Virus record (IMG/VR): IMGVR_UViG_3300037961_005406
Span: 1 to 55,883 of that record
Reading direction: 5' to 3' (one strand)
From: a virus
Length of the DNA stretch: 55,883 nucleotides
Each line of letters starts with the position of its first letter. Within the stretch, counting starts at the first letter, position 1. The translations under genes were made by a program, and so were the position numbers. The notes beneath the pieces are model-generated. The model saw only the letters and a list, made by a program, of their open reading frames with translations, was not told the DNA's origin and ran no database searches. Shown here piece by piece: positions 1,070-36,114 of the stretch.

Positions 1070-1612
1070 ATGAACCTAGAACAATTAACAAAGATAAATA
1101 TAAAAACTGACGAAGTAAAAGACATATCCGACGCTTGTAAAAAGCTAACTTCTCAAAATAAGATTGTAGAAAAAACTGAAGATCTTCTTAAATTACAACA
1201 AGAAGAAGCTAGACGTTTATCTGAAGAAGTGATACCAACTCTTATGCAGCAAGCAGGAGTTTCATCAATAACACTTGATGACGGTACTTCGGTTGAGGTT
1301 TCACCTTACTACTATGCGAAAATCCAAGAGGCACACAAAGAAGAGGCCTTCCGATGGTTGCGTGAGAACAATCACGGGGATCTGATAAAAAACAATTTAT
1401 CGGTTTCGTTTGGTAAGGGGGAAGATGCTGATGCAACGAAACTAAAAGAATCGTTGGAGAAGCAAGGTCTGGTCGTAGACCAAAAACAAGACGTTCATTG
1501 GCAAACTCTTCGAGGATTTGTGAAAGAGCAAATTGAGAAGAATAAAACTATACCATCTGAAACTTTTGGATTGTATATTGCTAATCGAACTAAAATAAAA
1601 AGTAACAAATAA
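1070..1612 (+). CDS. hypothetical early phage protein, first gene of the replication operon
   Basis: This 180-residue soluble protein has a strong AAGGAGG ribosome binding site 8 nt before the ATG. The N-terminal third is a charged, probably coiled-coil helix (about residues 20-60). The C-terminal half contains HWQTLRGFVKEQ, which looks like a conserved core. I do not recognise a catalytic motif. Position at the head of the operon ahead of ssDNA-binding, primase and helicase genes suggests a replication or recombination accessory role, but that is context only. Confidence 0.8.
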   Translation: MNLEQLTKINIKTDEVKDISDACKKLTSQNKIVEKTEDLLKLQQEEARRLSEEVIPTLMQQAGVSSITLDDGTSVEVSPYYYAKIQEAHKEEAFRWLRENNHGDLIKNNLSVSFGKGEDADATKLKESLEKQGLVVDQKQDVHWQTLRGFVKEQIEKNKTIPSETFGLYIANRTKIKSNK

Positions 1613-1629
1613 CAACTAAGAGGTAAAAA

Positions 1630-2436
1630 ATGGCAACACAAAAAGCCACAAACGCAGTTGCTCAAAAGGCAACAGCACAAGCACCTATGGTTTCAAATAT
1701 GGAACAATTCGCAGGTGCAGGAGCGGAAAACATTACATCAAAAGATGTATCACTTCCGTTTTTAAAAATCCTTACTAATAATTCACCGCAAGTTACTCAA
1801 GGTGACTCGCAGTTTATTAGTGAGGCAAGACCAGGTATGGTAATAAATTCTGTTTTGAACAAACTTTATGATGGTCAAGCAGGATTTAAAGTCATTCCTT
1901 GTTTCTTTAAATTCGAATACGTGGAATGGGCTGATAGAGGCACACAGAATTCTGTGGCACCTATTAATTCGTATCCAGCTGATTCGGATATAATGACTAA
2001 AACAACCAGGGGTGATGATCGAAAAGATAGATTACCTAACGGTAATTATATCGAGCCAACTCATTACCATTACGTGTTAATGGTTGATGAGAATGATCAA
2101 GCTACGACTACTGCTGTTATTGTGATGAAAGCTACTCAGGCTAAAAAGTCTAAGAAGTGGAACTCAATGATGCTTTCTCAAAGAAGGAAAGGCAGTAAAG
2201 GTATGTTCCAACCACCTACATGGTCTCAGATTTATACTCTAAGAACTGTGTTAGAAAAGAACTCTTTGGGTTCTTGGTTCGGTTGGGAGATTGATCATGA
2301 TAAGGATATACCTAACGACACTCTCATGCAGGCAGCGATGTCTTTTTATGAGACGTGTAAAAAAGGTAATGCCAAGGTCAATCTTACCGAGGAACAGCAG
2401 GCACAAACAGGAACAACACCTTTCGAGCCTGCATAA
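1630..2436 (+). CDS. putative phage single-stranded DNA-binding protein
   Basis: A 268-residue protein with a low-complexity Ala/Gln/Thr N-terminus and then a compact domain beginning MEQFAGAGAENITSKD, with SLPFLKILTNNSPQV, a VEWADRG segment and a C-terminal ...TPFEPA tail. This layout resembles a family that phage annotations usually call ssDNA-binding protein; the assignment is from remembered resemblance plus position immediately before the primase. No OB-fold motif can be proven by eye. It follows an AAGAGGT ribosome site, and its stop overlaps the primase start (TAATG), indicating translational coupling. Confidence 0.55.
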   Translation: MATQKATNAVAQKATAQAPMVSNMEQFAGAGAENITSKDVSLPFLKILTNNSPQVTQGDSQFISEARPGMVINSVLNKLYDGQAGFKVIPCFFKFEYVEWADRGTQNSVAPINSYPADSDIMTKTTRGDDRKDRLPNGNYIEPTHYHYVLMVDENDQATTTAVIVMKATQAKKSKKWNSMMLSQRRKGSKGMFQPPTWSQIYTLRTVLEKNSLGSWFGWEIDHDKDIPNDTLMQAAMSFYETCKKGNAKVNLTEEQQAQTGTTPFEPA

Positions 2437-12040: not shown

Positions 12041-12508
12041 TTAAATTAAAGATTTTTCCCATCTATATTTTTGAACTGAATGAACTTTTGGTTGCCACTC
12101 TCTATTCTTTCTTGTTGTCCAACCTGTACCTTCTGAAAAAGCTCTTGTTGTTTCTTTGTGTGTATATCCTGCAGCTTTTAAACTAATCCCAGATTCTGTT
12201 TCTAATGTATAAGTTAAAATTTTAGTGCCACCCATTTCTTTCCATATCCTAGCACATGCACCATATAAGAAGCTGTTAACATTTTTAATACCTTCTGTGC
12301 ATGTTCTTACAATTTCTCCTGTATAACCATCATCTAATTTTCTTGCTACAGGTCTACCAACAATTGCTACACCAATAATTTGATTGTCATCATCAACAGC
12401 TGCAATACAAAACTTACAGCCAACTACAGTTTTACTATGTCTGTGATGTTTTCTGACATACTCATTTGCTAATCTTAATGTATAAGGTTTAATCCTCACA
12501 GGCCACAC
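12041..12508 (-). CDS. XF1762-like protein (GNAT-related)
   Basis: 155 residues matching the conserved outline of the XF1762 family: ANEYVRKHHRHSKTVVGCKF, then IIGVAIVGRPVARKLDDG, then EIVRTCTEGIKNVNSFLYGA and YTLETESGISLKAAGY. The fold is thought to be acetyltransferase-like. These genes travel with phage DNA-modification genes, but no activity is established. Here it overlaps the end of the PP-loop gene by 13 nt and is the last gene of the minus-strand methyltransferase cassette. Confidence 0.8.
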   Translation of the reverse strand: MWPVRIKPYTLRLANEYVRKHHRHSKTVVGCKFCIAAVDDDNQIIGVAIVGRPVARKLDDGYTGEIVRTCTEGIKNVNSFLYGACARIWKEMGGTKILTYTLETESGISLKAAGYTHKETTRAFSEGTGWTTRKNREWQPKVHSVQKYRWEKSLI

Positions 12509-13308
12509 ATACCTTCACACTCTTGATTGAATAAATCTCCTTGAGTGTCATTTTTAAATTTAACTTCATCTAAAGGTACACAAGATCTGTGAACATAGTT
12601 TTTTACTTTTGGATTATGTTTACGCATTTCTTTATCGAAGAACACAGCTTCTTTAAATTCGTTAGGTCTCTTATCTCTCATTTCTATCCAGAAATTATCA
12701 TCGTGAAACGGACACCCGATACAGGCCGACTTCACAGGTACATTGAAACCTTTACCTTCATACCATTTTAAACAATCCTGTCTGGTCATTTTCTTTTCTA
12801 ACAATGGCCATCTGTTTTCTTGCCACCAAAACCTAGATGGTTTCATACGCATTACTTCATCCATAGATATACCAATCCAAACCTCAACCCATTGATTTTT
12901 CTTCATTTTTTGTCTTGGTTTGTAGCCTAATATTTCTCTTATTTTCTTTGCAATTGGAGTTATTTTATATTCTCTTGTGCATTGTCTTCGACCCATTCCT
13001 TTTTTACCTTTTTCATTCAAAGTATAAAATGGTGCTGAAGCGAATTGATTACCACCTGGAGACAAAGCTTTTAAGATGTCTTTGTCTAGATCTCCTTTTT
13101 TAGTTATGTGCACAGGATAAGATAGTTTTGTTTTTAAATAATTTAAATGATCTATTACTGTAGATGGTTCCCAACCTGTATCTGCGAATACAGCTGCATC
13201 AGGTTTAACACCAAATGCTCCTTGGTCTGCCATCAAGGCCATAGTGCTAGATTGTACACCAGCTCCTAACGATAAGATTCTTAGACTTGGTTCTTTGTCA
13301 CGTTCCAT
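12496..13308 (-). CDS. PP-loop / PAPS-reductase-like protein
   Basis: 270 residues beginning with the PP-loop SLGAGVQSSTMAL (13-25), then AAVFADTGWEP, typical of the phosphoadenosine-phosphosulfate reductase-like branch of ATP pyrophosphatases. Several Cys residues in pairs (RRQCTREY, SACIGCPFHDD, CEGMCGL) could coordinate a metal or Fe-S cluster. Phage members often sit beside DNA methyltransferases; a role in DNA or tRNA thiolation or another modification has been proposed but not shown for this branch. It overlaps the methyltransferase gene by 28 nt and the XF1762 gene by 13 nt. Confidence 0.8.
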   Translation of the reverse strand: MERDKEPSLRILSLGAGVQSSTMALMADQGAFGVKPDAAVFADTGWEPSTVIDHLNYLKTKLSYPVHITKKGDLDKDILKALSPGGNQFASAPFYTLNEKGKKGMGRRQCTREYKITPIAKKIREILGYKPRQKMKKNQWVEVWIGISMDEVMRMKPSRFWWQENRWPLLEKKMTRQDCLKWYEGKGFNVPVKSACIGCPFHDDNFWIEMRDKRPNEFKEAVFFDKEMRKHNPKVKNYVHRSCVPLDEVKFKNDTQGDLFNQECEGMCGL

Positions 13309-14237
13309 ATTGCTCTTCCTATTTCTTCTGCGATTTGCGGGACGATAGAGTTTCCCAATCCTTTAAGTCTGTATACCCGCCCGGGTACCCCATTAGCCAC
13401 TCTACCCACATCGGGTTCAGTGCGCCACCAACTTTCTCCCCTAGATTCCCCTTGCCACGATCTATCTTGCTGTCCTTGTACATGAACTCCCTTGGAGTTG
13501 GCCACATTATGTTCGGATGTGCTACTTGATCGTTTAAACTGATCGGCATTTTCTTGTTCACTTTCATTTGCATTCTTTCCTTCGAACTCGCTCCCCTGTC
13601 GCAATGTGCGTCTGGTGTTCTCCATAACTTCATTGTCGCTGGATCCACTTGTTCTCTCAGGTTCGATGGACGAGATCTTCCCTTCCTTTGACCTTGCATC
13701 AGCTTCTTGGTTCCTTCTTCTGATCTTGGAGGTAAGTGATCCATTGTGTTTGGAGTAGCCCACAATCCAGACTCTTTCTCTTCTATGGGGCGCGCCGACG
13801 CCTGCAGCTGGAATAATAAACGCTTGGACTTCGAAGCCTTCACTTTCCAGGTCAGTGCACACTGTTTCGAATACCATGCCGTCTTGGATGTTAATAATTC
13901 CTCTGACATTCTCTGCAATAATCCAGGTGGGTCTGACTTCTTTAATGACTCTGAACATATCTGGCCAGAGATATCTGTCGTCATTGGTACCTTTTTGCTT
14001 GCCTGCAACACTGTACGGTTGGCAAGGAAAGCCTCCTGTGAGGATGTCAATGGGTTCTTTGATGTCTTTCGCTTCCAATTTTTTAATATCATGATGTATT
14101 GTAACTCCTTTCCAATGTTTTTGCAGCAATAGTCTGCAGTATGGGTCAACTTCACAGAAGCCTACAGTTGTAAAGCCCACTCGTTCTAGAGCTAAACTAA
14201 ATCCACCAATACCGCTAAATAAGTCTAAATGATTCAT
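13281..14237 (-). CDS. dcm: DNA (cytosine-5)-methyltransferase
   Basis: Transfers a methyl group from SAM to C5 of cytosine. Numbered from the ATG at 14237: motif I HLDLFSGIGGFSLAL (3-17), catalytic Cys72 in GGFPCQPYS, ENV (109-111), HRRERVWIVG (151-160), and C-terminal motifs ending KGLGNSIVPQIAEEIGRAI. The stretch after residue 160 is polar and low in hydrophobics, which is unusual for a target-recognition domain, and is exactly where a second frame is overprinted. A TTG 39 nt upstream is in frame, but it is the TTGACA of a likely promoter, so the ATG is preferred. Protection against host restriction is the usual role. Confidence 0.92.
   Translation of the reverse strand: MNHLDLFSGIGGFSLALERVGFTTVGFCEVDPYCRLLLQKHWKGVTIHHDIKKLEAKDIKEPIDILTGGFPCQPYSVAGKQKGTNDDRYLWPDMFRVIKEVRPTWIIAENVRGIINIQDGMVFETVCTDLESEGFEVQAFIIPAAGVGAPHRRERVWIVGYSKHNGSLTSKIRRRNQEADARSKEGKISSIEPERTSGSSDNEVMENTRRTLRQGSEFEGKNANESEQENADQFKRSSSTSEHNVANSKGVHVQGQQDRSWQGESRGESWWRTEPDVGRVANGVPGRVYRLKGLGNSIVPQIAEEIGRAIWNVTKNQV
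13319..14155 (-). CDS. overprinted frame inside dcm, possible real protein
   Basis: A 278-codon open frame on the same strand as dcm but in another frame, covering 13319-14155. It contains three WxTP motifs (WATP 132-135, WRTP 178-181, WPTP 218-221), TWKVKASKSKRLLFQL (102-117) and a hydrophobic ending LNPMWVEWLMGYPGGYTDL (246-264). I recall similar sequences encoded with cytosine methyltransferases of other phages, so this frame may be under its own selection. The true start is uncertain (Met1, 22, 58 or 83) and no ribosome site is obvious. Function unknown; a long chance frame is the alternative. Confidence 0.5.
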   Translation of the reverse strand: MKLTHTADYCCKNIGKELQYIMILKNWKRKTSKNPLTSSQEAFLANRTVLQASKKVPMTTDISGQICSESLKKSDPPGLLQRMSEELLTSKTAWYSKQCALTWKVKASKSKRLLFQLQASARPIEEKESGLWATPNTMDHLPPRSEEGTKKLMQGQRKGRSRPSNLREQVDPATMKLWRTPDAHCDRGASSKERMQMKVNKKMPISLNDQVAHPNIMWPTPREFMYKDSKIDRGKGNLGEKVGGALNPMWVEWLMGYPGGYTDLKDWETLSSRKSQKK

Positions 14238-14238
14238 C

Positions 14239-14435
14239 TGTGACACTGTTTTTATAGGTTTTACGTAATTTGTCAATCTATATAAGATATTTCTACCTAA
14301 AACACTCTACACAGGACACCAGAATGTCTGACATTTGTGACATAGACCTCTTTTTAGACTATTTACATTGATACTACTTACTTATTTGATGTCACAAACA
14401 CTTTTATTCTGTGACATACACTGACACTAGTGACA
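14239..14435. promoter_or_regulatory. TGTGACA operator-like repeats between dcm and terS
   Basis: The 268-nt divergent gap holds TGTGACA at 14239-14245, 14336-14342 and 14410-14416, its complement TGTCACA at 14390-14396, and AGTGACA at 14429-14435. The 14390-14416 pair forms a 7-bp inverted repeat with a 13-nt spacer. A TTGACA on the minus strand (14276-14271) with TAAAAA 16 nt downstream could drive the dcm cassette. The repeats suggest binding sites for a regulator of either divergent unit. Confidence 0.5.
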
Positions 14436-33985: not shown

Positions 33986-34582
33986 GTGCAAATTATTCCG
34001 ATATTTTCTAAACCAATTTATATTAATAAAATAAATATAGAGACCAAAAAAATTTTTAACATTTTAAATAATTTTCATTTAAGTAAATCAAGAGACGATT
34101 CTAAATCTAGTGATATTGCAATAAATTACAATGTACTTAATATGGCTGAATTGAATGAATTAAAAGAAAAAATTGTAATATCTTATGAAGACTTTCTTAA
34201 CAACAATTTACATTATAAAAACAAATTTAAAATAACCACTTCTTGGATAACTAGAACTTTACCAGGCCAAAAATCACACGCTCACAATCATTTAAACAGT
34301 ATGTTTAGTGGTGTATTTTACGTACAAACTAAAAAAAATTGTGGAAAAATTCAATTTCAAAATTTATTTAATAAAACTTTTCATTTAAATATAAAAAGTT
34401 ATAATATCTACAATTCTGATTTTTGGGATATAGAACCATCAGATGGTTTAATTTTAATTTTTCCTTCTGAGATATATCATCAAGTATTAGAAAATTTTTC
34501 TGATCTTGAAAGAGTTTCAATAGCTTTTAATTTATTACCTATTGGAAAAATTGGAGAACATGATAGTCAATTAAAATTATGA
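33986..34582 (+). CDS. 2OG-Fe(II) oxygenase (TIGR02466-like)
   Basis: 198 residues, GTG start. The family pattern is clear: SWITRTLPGQKSHAHNHLNS with clustered His (98, 100, 102), SGVFYV strand, then LILIFPSEIYHQVLEN (H165) and ERVSIAFNLL (R176). Phage relatives are predicted hydroxylases; the substrate is unknown. It overlaps the halogenase start (ATGA), so the two are translationally coupled and may act on the same molecule. Confidence 0.8.
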   Translation: MQIIPIFSKPIYINKINIETKKIFNILNNFHLSKSRDDSKSSDIAINYNVLNMAELNELKEKIVISYEDFLNNNLHYKNKFKITTSWITRTLPGQKSHAHNHLNSMFSGVFYVQTKKNCGKIQFQNLFNKTFHLNIKSYNIYNSDFWDIEPSDGLILIFPSEIYHQVLENFSDLERVSIAFNLLPIGKIGEHDSQLKL

Positions 34583-36114
34583 TTAAAAAAATAGTTATCG
34601 TTGGAGGAGGCACAGCTGGTTGGATAACTGCATCCATACTTATATATAAATTAAATCCAAAAATAAAAATTTCGTTGATAGAATCTAAAGAAATACCAAT
34701 TGTTGGAGTCGGAGAAAGCACGACAGGGACTATTTCTCAACTAATAGATGATCATACTCATTTAGGAGGTATAAGAAATTTTTTAAAAGAAACAGGAGCC
34801 ACTTACAAATATGGTATTAGACATGTGGATTGGTTACGAAAAAACCATTCATTTGTTAGCCCCATAGGATCTTCTTTTGAAAGATGGAAAAAATATCCAA
34901 CAGAAGACTATGACCATATTAGAATTTATCATGTGGCAGAAAAATTAAATTATGTAATACCACTTCAAAATCAATTGATGCTTCAAGATAAATTATATTA
35001 TGTAAAACATGGAGATAAATATCAAATGATGCATGATTTAGATGATGGTTTACACATAGATGCCTTTAAAACTTCAGATTATTTTAGAAAAAAATGTTTA
35101 TCTACAGGCAGAATAACAAGAATTGAGGATACAATTCAAAGTTTTATCAAAAATGATCTTGGTGGTGTTAAAACTTTAAAATTAAAATCTGGTAAAGAGT
35201 TAGACGCTGATTTATTTATTGATTGTTCTGGATGGCATAAAACTTTAATTAAAGATATGGGAGTAAATTTTGTTTCTTATGAAAATAATTTATTAACAAA
35301 TAGAGCTATTTTATTTCCTAAAAAAAATAAGGAAAATGATATACTGAAAAATCATCTTACAGCAACTGCAAGAAAATACGGTTGGACATTTGAAATTCCT
35401 TTACAAGAAAGAACAGGAAGAGGTTACATAATAAATCGGCATATGGTTTCCGATGAGGATGCAGTTAAAGAAATGAATGAGTGTTTTAATGAGGAGATTG
35501 AAGTTAAAAAAACAATAAACTTTGAAGTAGGTAGACTTAATAATTTTTGGATTAAAAATGTTTTAGCAGTAGGGCTATGTTCTAATTTTATAGAACCTTT
35601 GGAAGCTACCGGTTTACATACAACAATTGAACAAGTCGAACATTTTTGTGATTATTATTTAAATGATACTTTGGATTTATATGATTATTATTTACAAAAA
35701 AATTACAACGATCACATTACAAGTTTTATTGATGATATAAGAGATTTTATTTTACTTCATTATCAAACAAAAAGAACTGATACAGATTTTTGGATAGAGT
35801 CTTCATCTAAAAAAAGATGGACAGAAGAGTTTAAAAGAAAGATGTACACTTGGAAAAAAAGAATGCCAAGAAAACACGATTATCATCACAAAGGTAGATT
35901 ACACGGTTTAAGTAATGCTTTGTGGTTACAAGTTGGTCATGGTTATGAAATTTTTGATAGTGAAATAGCAAAAAAAGAGTTAGAATATTATGGATTATAT
36001 GATATAGCCAAACAGCAATTAAATGAAATAGGAGTTTTTTCTAAGTATTGTGTGGATAATGCTATGACTACTAATGACTTTTACAAACTACTAAATAATG
36101 GTAAAATAAATTAA
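34579..36114 (+). CDS. flavin-dependent halogenase (tryptophan-halogenase family)
   Basis: 511 residues. FAD-binding GGGTAGW (9-15) and VGVGES (42-47). Lys77 in TYKYGIRHVDW aligns with the catalytic Lys79 of PrnA/RebH, which guides HOCl to the substrate. The family WxWxIP motif appears as WTFEIP (269-274), with Phe in place of the second Trp. NFIEPLEATGLH (337-347) matches the FxEPLxxTGI active-site segment. Length fits the family (~510-540). Phage precedent: VirX1 of cyanophage Syn10. Halide preference and substrate cannot be told; no flavin reductase is seen. Overlaps the upstream oxygenase by 4 nt; the downstream M15 peptidase gene starts 2 nt later. Confidence 0.88.
   Translation: MIKKIVIVGGGTAGWITASILIYKLNPKIKISLIESKEIPIVGVGESTTGTISQLIDDHTHLGGIRNFLKETGATYKYGIRHVDWLRKNHSFVSPIGSSFERWKKYPTEDYDHIRIYHVAEKLNYVIPLQNQLMLQDKLYYVKHGDKYQMMHDLDDGLHIDAFKTSDYFRKKCLSTGRITRIEDTIQSFIKNDLGGVKTLKLKSGKELDADLFIDCSGWHKTLIKDMGVNFVSYENNLLTNRAILFPKKNKENDILKNHLTATARKYGWTFEIPLQERTGRGYIINRHMVSDEDAVKEMNECFNEEIEVKKTINFEVGRLNNFWIKNVLAVGLCSNFIEPLEATGLHTTIEQVEHFCDYYLNDTLDLYDYYLQKNYNDHITSFIDDIRDFILLHYQTKRTDTDFWIESSSKKRWTEEFKRKMYTWKKRMPRKHDYHHKGRLHGLSNALWLQVGHGYEIFDSEIAKKELEYYGLYDIAKQQLNEIGVFSKYCVDNAMTTNDFYKLLNNGKIN

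Follow-up and report, generated by a model that had tools for sequence, protein, structure and literature searches.

A phage C5-cytosine methyltransferase gene with a conserved protein-coding +1 frame that probably encodes the recognition half of the enzyme

A methyltransferase gene with a second reading frame

The DNA analyzed here, referred to as the window, is a virus record of 55,883 bases, from a phage that carries family A DNA polymerase and terminase genes. The locus under study consists of a C5-cytosine methyltransferase open reading frame, called alpha, and a second frame inside it, read from the same strand at +1 relative to alpha and called beta (Table 1). An earlier note on this DNA had described an alternative frame of 278 codons with WxTP motifs at residues 132, 178 and 218 and the sequences TWKVKASKSKRLLFQL and LNPMWVEWLMGYPGGYTDL, and the frame and all of these features were found as described. 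The same-strand overlap is long (about 250 codons) and evidently old. The N-terminal core of beta overlaps alpha from before the ENV motif through motif VIII.

The methyltransferase adjoins a gene for a PAPS reductase-like protein and is clustered with a gene for a Mom-like DNA modification protein, both on the same strand and downstream of it. Similarly annotated PAPS reductase-like genes lie near the methyltransferase in Bacteroides phage BKO1-TP3 (L005) and phage C72C1 (L006). This neighbourhood is consistent with a DNA-modification, anti-restriction cluster and is taken as context, not proof. Elsewhere in this phage genome the window holds a tryptophan halogenase gene.

Table 1. Features of the window and of related loci. 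Coordinates are those of the window unless a locus is named.
Feature	Position	Strand	Evidence or remark
Alpha, C5-cytosine methyltransferase ORF	13281-14276	-	PF00145 8e-56, TIGR00675 1.5e-48
Alpha, likely start	ATG 14237 (MNHLDLF)	-	
Beta, +1-frame CDS inside alpha	13319-14092	-	257 aa; putative recognition and motif IX role
Longest ORF of the beta frame, from GTG 14155	13319-14155	-	278 codons
Shine-Dalgarno-like AAAGGAG, alpha codons 56-58	14105-14111	-	12 nt 5' of the beta ATG
Beta N-terminal core, about ISGQICSESLKK to TWKVKASKSKRLLFQLQAS	13752-13966	-	constraint on both frames
Beta recognition module A (WATPNTMDHLPPRS...NLREQV)	13625-13762	-	module clustering
Beta recognition module B (WRTPDAHCDRG...LNDQVAH)	13505-13624	-	module clustering
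Beta recognition module O (WPTPREFMYKDS...)	13421-13504	-	module clustering
Beta motif IX (assigned), LNPMWVEWLMGYPGGYTDL	13364-13420	-	weak phmmer, hhalign
Alpha linker over the beta modules	13407-13730	-	predicted disordered; p3/p1 inverted
Alpha motif X (RLKGLGNSIVPQIAEEIGRAI)	13293-13370	-	GN of GN.IVPQ; modelled helices
PAPS reductase-like protein	12496-13308	-	phrog_424 3e-47; weaker SspD 1.7e-12
Mom-like DNA modification protein	12041-12508	-	phrog_1384 1.9e-30
Tryptophan halogenase	34579-36114	+	PF04820 2.6e-93
E. coli prophage and N15 loci with open +1 frame	L292 2363-3397; L293 1855-2769; L294 1779-2687; L004 1778-2773		
Synergistaceae loci with GGFPC(Q) insertions	L234 1832-1846; L226 1580-1594; L223 1775-1787; L198 about 1415-1880		
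Marine phage KM23-C739, alpha over two frames	L002 1920-2824		

Selection on both frames and the start of beta

Relatives were gathered by IMG/VR searches using each frame as the query. The +1 frame was open over 184-457 codons in all 89 of the 89 distinct full-length methyltransferase ORFs, some of which came from phage records. Stops were counted over alpha codons 75-312 (238 codons) in 41 non-redundant homologues, and none of the 41 contained a +1 stop, as compared to an expectation of 8.5 per sequence (5.2-11.1) from synonymous codon shuffling over the same codons. The +2 frame, used as a control, contained 16-36 stops in these homologues. In the opposite direction, no gene had an alpha-frame stop within the recognition region, as compared to 4.5 per gene expected from shuffling beta codons. 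With zero stops each way against 8.5 and 4.5 expected, both frames are kept open.

Substitutions were counted by alpha codon position (p1/p2/p3) in 20 independent sister pairs. Codons 14-60, which precede the overlap, demonstrated the usual pattern (54/27/189), and codons 61-104 gave 52/24/193. Counts over codons 105-175 were 48/12/68, with both frames held. Over codons 176-270 the counts were 327/100/61 (P = 4e-45), so that alpha position 1, which is the beta wobble position, was free and alpha position 3 was fixed. Amino-acid identity over these codons was 0.94 for beta and 0.79 for alpha, and codons 284-304 leaned the same way (37/16/16). The frame under selection over alpha codons 176-270 is the +1 frame. 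Alpha synonymous differences told the same story along the gene, with observed to expected ratios of mostly 0.5-0.9 upstream and mostly 0.05-0.4 where alpha overlaps the beta core, where a local peak of 0.7 was seen near codon 165. They were near zero in codons 175-215, and a dip at codons 50-65 fell at the site of the beta initiation region. The +1 frame is truly protein-coding: it is overprinted, conserved and selected, and the methyltransferase frame is under constraint from it. The earlier note had claimed a second conserved protein overprinted on the dcm gene and had named two outcomes that would speak against it, frequent stops in homologues and freely evolving dcm synonymous sites. Both analyses were run, and the stop-free codons 75-312 of the 41 homologues, the 327/100/61 pattern and the depressed synonymous differences all bear the claim out.

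Biased codon use can by itself leave +1 frames open, and the methyltransferase contains repeated VANS/VADS-like motifs, so the open frame could in principle be an untranslated by-product of amino-acid and codon bias. However, shuffling with identical amino acids and codons resulted in 5-11 stops per gene, and the free first and fixed third alpha positions over codons 176-270 argue against it. Across phyla, the beta recognition region also matched 26 of 80 loci (E<1e-3), against 3 of 80 for alpha over that stretch, a comparison not free of bias as these loci were found with beta. We give a by-product of bias essentially no chance of being correct. Beta homology as a shadow of alpha was ruled out by the stop counts, the codon-position pattern and the matches across phyla.

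The stop counts also delimited beta at its 5' end. Codons 41-62 held about as many +1 stops as chance predicts (21 observed, 23.4 expected), and codons 63-97 almost none (1 observed, 61.7 expected). An ATG at codon 62 (14092) behind AAAGG[AGT]G was present in 39 of the 41 homologues, and the two without this ATG were also without the Shine-Dalgarno sequence. Because stop avoidance begins at codon 62-63 and the Shine-Dalgarno/ATG pair is conserved, ATG 14092, producing a beta of 257 aa, is the most likely start. The 12 nt spacing between the two elements is long, and the start assignment is strong but not final. The first ~35 residues of beta (residues 22-57 of the long ORF) were under little constraint beyond stop avoidance. 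Two other candidates were rejected: GTG 14155, as stops upstream of codon 62 were at chance level, and ATG 13984, which as a general start was present in 18 of 41 homologues.

Shine-Dalgarno-like sequences can stimulate +1 frameshifts, as in prfB, and the one before beta could act in this way. The beta frame is +1 and lies downstream of the alpha start, and stop avoidance from codon 63 would also fit a programmed +1 frameshift near codons 58-62, which would make beta the C-terminal part of a fusion with the alpha N-terminus. Against this, the codon-62 ATG is kept in nearly all homologues and was lost jointly with the Shine-Dalgarno sequence in the other two, the codons after the Shine-Dalgarno sequence are variable (ACA/AAG/AAA) with no slippery run, and the annotation of phage Catalina gives beta a gene and a start codon of its own. 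In addition, the product of a frameshift at codons 58-62 would lack the PCQ, ENV and RxR motifs. We consider a frameshift unlikely and favour internal initiation at ATG 14092.

The catalytic chain and its probable other half

Alpha matched phrog_363 (1e-85) and carries the C5-methyltransferase catalytic set, motifs I, IV (PCQ), VI (ENV), VIII (RxR) and X. Residues G11, G12, P71, C72, Q73, E109, N110, R153, R155, G295 and N296 were invariant in 79 homologues. Judged by its motifs, alpha is the catalytic chain of a C5-cytosine DNA methyltransferase with motifs I-VIII and X and without motif IX; the alpha frame yielded no motif IX-like sequence, whereas the +1 frame did. The match of alpha to M.HhaI covered residues 8-172 only, and Foldseek aligned the alpha model to about 165 of the 327 M.HhaI residues. 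In the AF2 model of the 318-aa alpha the catalytic core and the motif X helices (287-294 and 300-317) were mostly confident, with dips to ~56-71 at residues 71-90 and 111-120, while residues 170-277 had a pLDDT of 32-46 and no secondary structure. No TRD or small domain was recognisable in alpha by the M.HhaI match, AF2 or Foldseek. As the M.HhaI match stops at 172 and the linker is predicted to be disordered, alpha appears to be without the small domain. The earlier note had called the methyltransferase frame unusually polar after the last catalytic motif, which was right, and this is the stretch predicted to be disordered. Sequence and modelling together suggest that the DNA that would code for the small domain of alpha instead encodes that domain in the beta frame.

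The alternative frame matched phrog_1008, annotated as 'DNA methyltransferase' (2e-28), and beta contains the WxTP modules and a motif IX-like sequence, LNPMWVEWLMGYPGGYTDL. Phmmer aligned LNPAWVEQLMGYPDGW of a single-chain relative to residues 273-289 of M.HhaI (KLHPRECARVMGYPDSY, the motif IX region) with a weak score of -0.5 bits, and despite the poor score its placement and order agree with M.HhaI motif IX. When the beta profile was compared to single-chain enzymes by hhalign, the probability was 97.9 for L244, a Pyramidobacter locus, and 95.5 for mycobacteriophage Moonbeam. The motif IX assigned in beta, LNPMWVEWLMGYPGGY, is homologous to a segment that lies in frame between the TRD and motif X in single-chain relatives.

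These relatives display the same domains in three arrangements. Moonbeam gp69 (P0003, L252) is one chain of 367 aa that matched phrog_363 over its length and whose C-terminal half matched phrog_1008 positions 152-323. The Pyramidobacter locus, truncated at its start, has motifs II-VIII followed by WRPPDANADRG..., then LNPAWVEQLMGYPDGWTD and finally motif X, all in a single frame. Catalina has two genes, gp024, which ends just past motif VIII, and gp025, which contains PTP modules, LAAAFPEWMMGYPEGW and motif X; the split in L241 is similar, with beta continuing into motif X. Of 39 further viral loci, 20 were single-chain and 6 were split. The nested +1 layout seen in the window was found in 87 of 90 loci surveyed, 80 of the 90 having been found via the beta profile, and the nested loci span Firmicutes, Bacteroidetes, Proteobacteria, Synergistaceae, Planctomycetes and others. 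Methyltransferase genes of E. coli prophages and phage N15 that are annotated as a single CDS had a +1 frame open over 242-297 codons; GGQLNPDLSRWLMGLP is one example of how it ends. The E. coli prophage hits did not prove to be the EcoHK31I system. Across this sample dual coding is evidently old, widespread over many phyla and mostly unannotated.

Beta could instead be a real overprinted protein with its own function, for example in DNA binding or anti-restriction, that merely shares the locus. This would be in keeping with its having no solved homologue, fold match or family: the beta profile drew only chance hits among PDB sequences, a Pfam search found no family for beta, and Foldseek found no match in the PDB to its low-confidence AF2 model (pLDDT 62.6, pTM 0.35). 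A poor model might, however, simply come of folding half an enzyme in isolation from the other half. In single-chain enzymes the beta segment stands in frame, preceded by motif VIII and followed by motif X, and the domain missing from alpha is exactly the one that this segment supplies in these relatives. For these two reasons beta is probably the target-recognition/motif IX half of alpha's own enzyme, and we regard an independent function as highly improbable. The separate, unstudied protein proposed in the earlier note is not what the phrog_1008 match, the fused relatives and the precedent of M.EcoHK31I described below point to.

Recognition modules, known systems and a proposed enzyme

Beta has 1-6 xTP modules, of median length 38 residues, between its core and motif IX. 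Module clustering resulted in 25 recurrent types that occur in many orders, forming a mosaic, and the window beta reads as the string A-B-O, with three WxTP modules. Type A was present as 31 copies in 31 loci, type B as 28 copies in 26 loci, some of them from Synergistaceae, and type O as 4 copies; types A and B recur across phyla. The mosaic order looks like reassortment of recognition units, and beta appears to also carry the recognition domain, in the form of these ~38-residue modules.

M.EcoHK31I targets YGGCCR and M.AquI targets CYCGRG. In M.EcoHK31I, a bacterial two-polypeptide enzyme from 1995, beta is reportedly likewise translated from a second frame within the alpha gene. In the portion of the literature that describes their motif layout (PMC3404938), M.EcoHK31I consists of an alpha polypeptide with motifs I-VIII, X and the predicted TRD and a beta polypeptide with motif IX, and the M.AquI chains are divided between motifs I-VIII and IX-X. 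The window resembles M.EcoHK31I in motif layout, having motifs I-VIII and X in alpha and IX in beta. It differs in that the modules are in beta, with a linker predicted to be disordered in the corresponding part of alpha, and in being a phage gene for which a partner nuclease is not evident. As in M.AquI, the catalytic half and the recognition/motif IX half are on two chains, and the M.AquI split is nearly matched by L241 and Catalina, in which motif X is on the second chain. The window differs from the M.AquI type in carrying motif X in alpha and in having the second chain nested at +1 over most of alpha. The precedent is M.EcoHK31I, and what is additional here is an apparent recognition domain in beta and dual coding over many phyla. 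No account of this two-frame overlap in phages was found in the literature searched; two DNA-cytosine methyltransferases are listed in a study of 48 Paenibacillus larvae phages, which leaves an overlap unremarked, and the PHROG label of phrog_1008 states neither a recognition half nor an other-frame overlap with phrog_363.

We consider it very likely that the locus encodes a dual-coded split C5-cytosine methyltransferase, in which a catalytic alpha and a beta carrying recognition and motif IX, the latter produced by internal initiation, assemble into one enzyme. One message would be read in frame 0 to produce alpha, comprising the catalytic domain (I-VIII), a flexible linker and motif X of the cofactor site. 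Internal initiation at the Shine-Dalgarno/ATG within alpha would produce beta in the +1 frame, supplying the missing small domain as the N-terminal core, motif IX and, between them, WxTP recognition modules, of which the window has three. The two chains would associate into the working enzyme, beta selecting the target and alpha flipping and methylating the cytosine, and methylation would presumably shield the phage DNA from host restriction. For the two halves of an enzyme to be encoded by a long and old overlap on one strand is rare and easily missed. Cloning the product of the annotated single gene, or predicting specificity from alpha, would then be expected to fail, and the split would account for the phage 'DNA methyltransferase' orphans of phrog_1008. 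The locus is a clear case of selection dividing one stretch of DNA between two frames, and the series of architectures, from a single chain to two genes to two nested frames, is useful for studying the origin of overlapping genes.

The C5-methyltransferases of Bacillus phages SPR, phi3T and H2 have tandem recognition domains within one enzyme (PMC8936443). Beta, with 1-6 modules in mosaic order, may be comparable to these multispecific enzymes, which unlike the two chains of the window are single-chain. One target per WxTP module would be a guess. We tentatively suggest, as an idea that may well prove wrong, that beta is a dual-coded modular specificity subunit in which each WxTP module is one exchangeable target-recognition unit, and that phages reassort modules (in strings such as ABO, AB, BIHF and AMLCD) so that multiple sites are methylated together, the overlapping alpha frame staying open through every swap and becoming a disordered linker. 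If true, a second coding frame would be overlaid with a combinatorial system for countering restriction.

Two irregularities were observed in the alpha frame of related loci (Table 1). Four Synergistaceae loci have insertions at the alpha catalytic GGFPC(Q) motif, with the beta frame still open. Three of the four are 6-9 nt long and contain in-frame stops (TAA CTG; TAA CTA CAG; TGA TGA), and the fourth is roughly 440 nt with an HNH-like ORF. An Rfam search at these insertions found no RNA element, and they are possibly mobile-element scars or a switch. The alpha of marine phage KM23-C739 appears to be frameshifted, being divided between annotated CDSs in two frames, and the shift is either real or a sequencing error.
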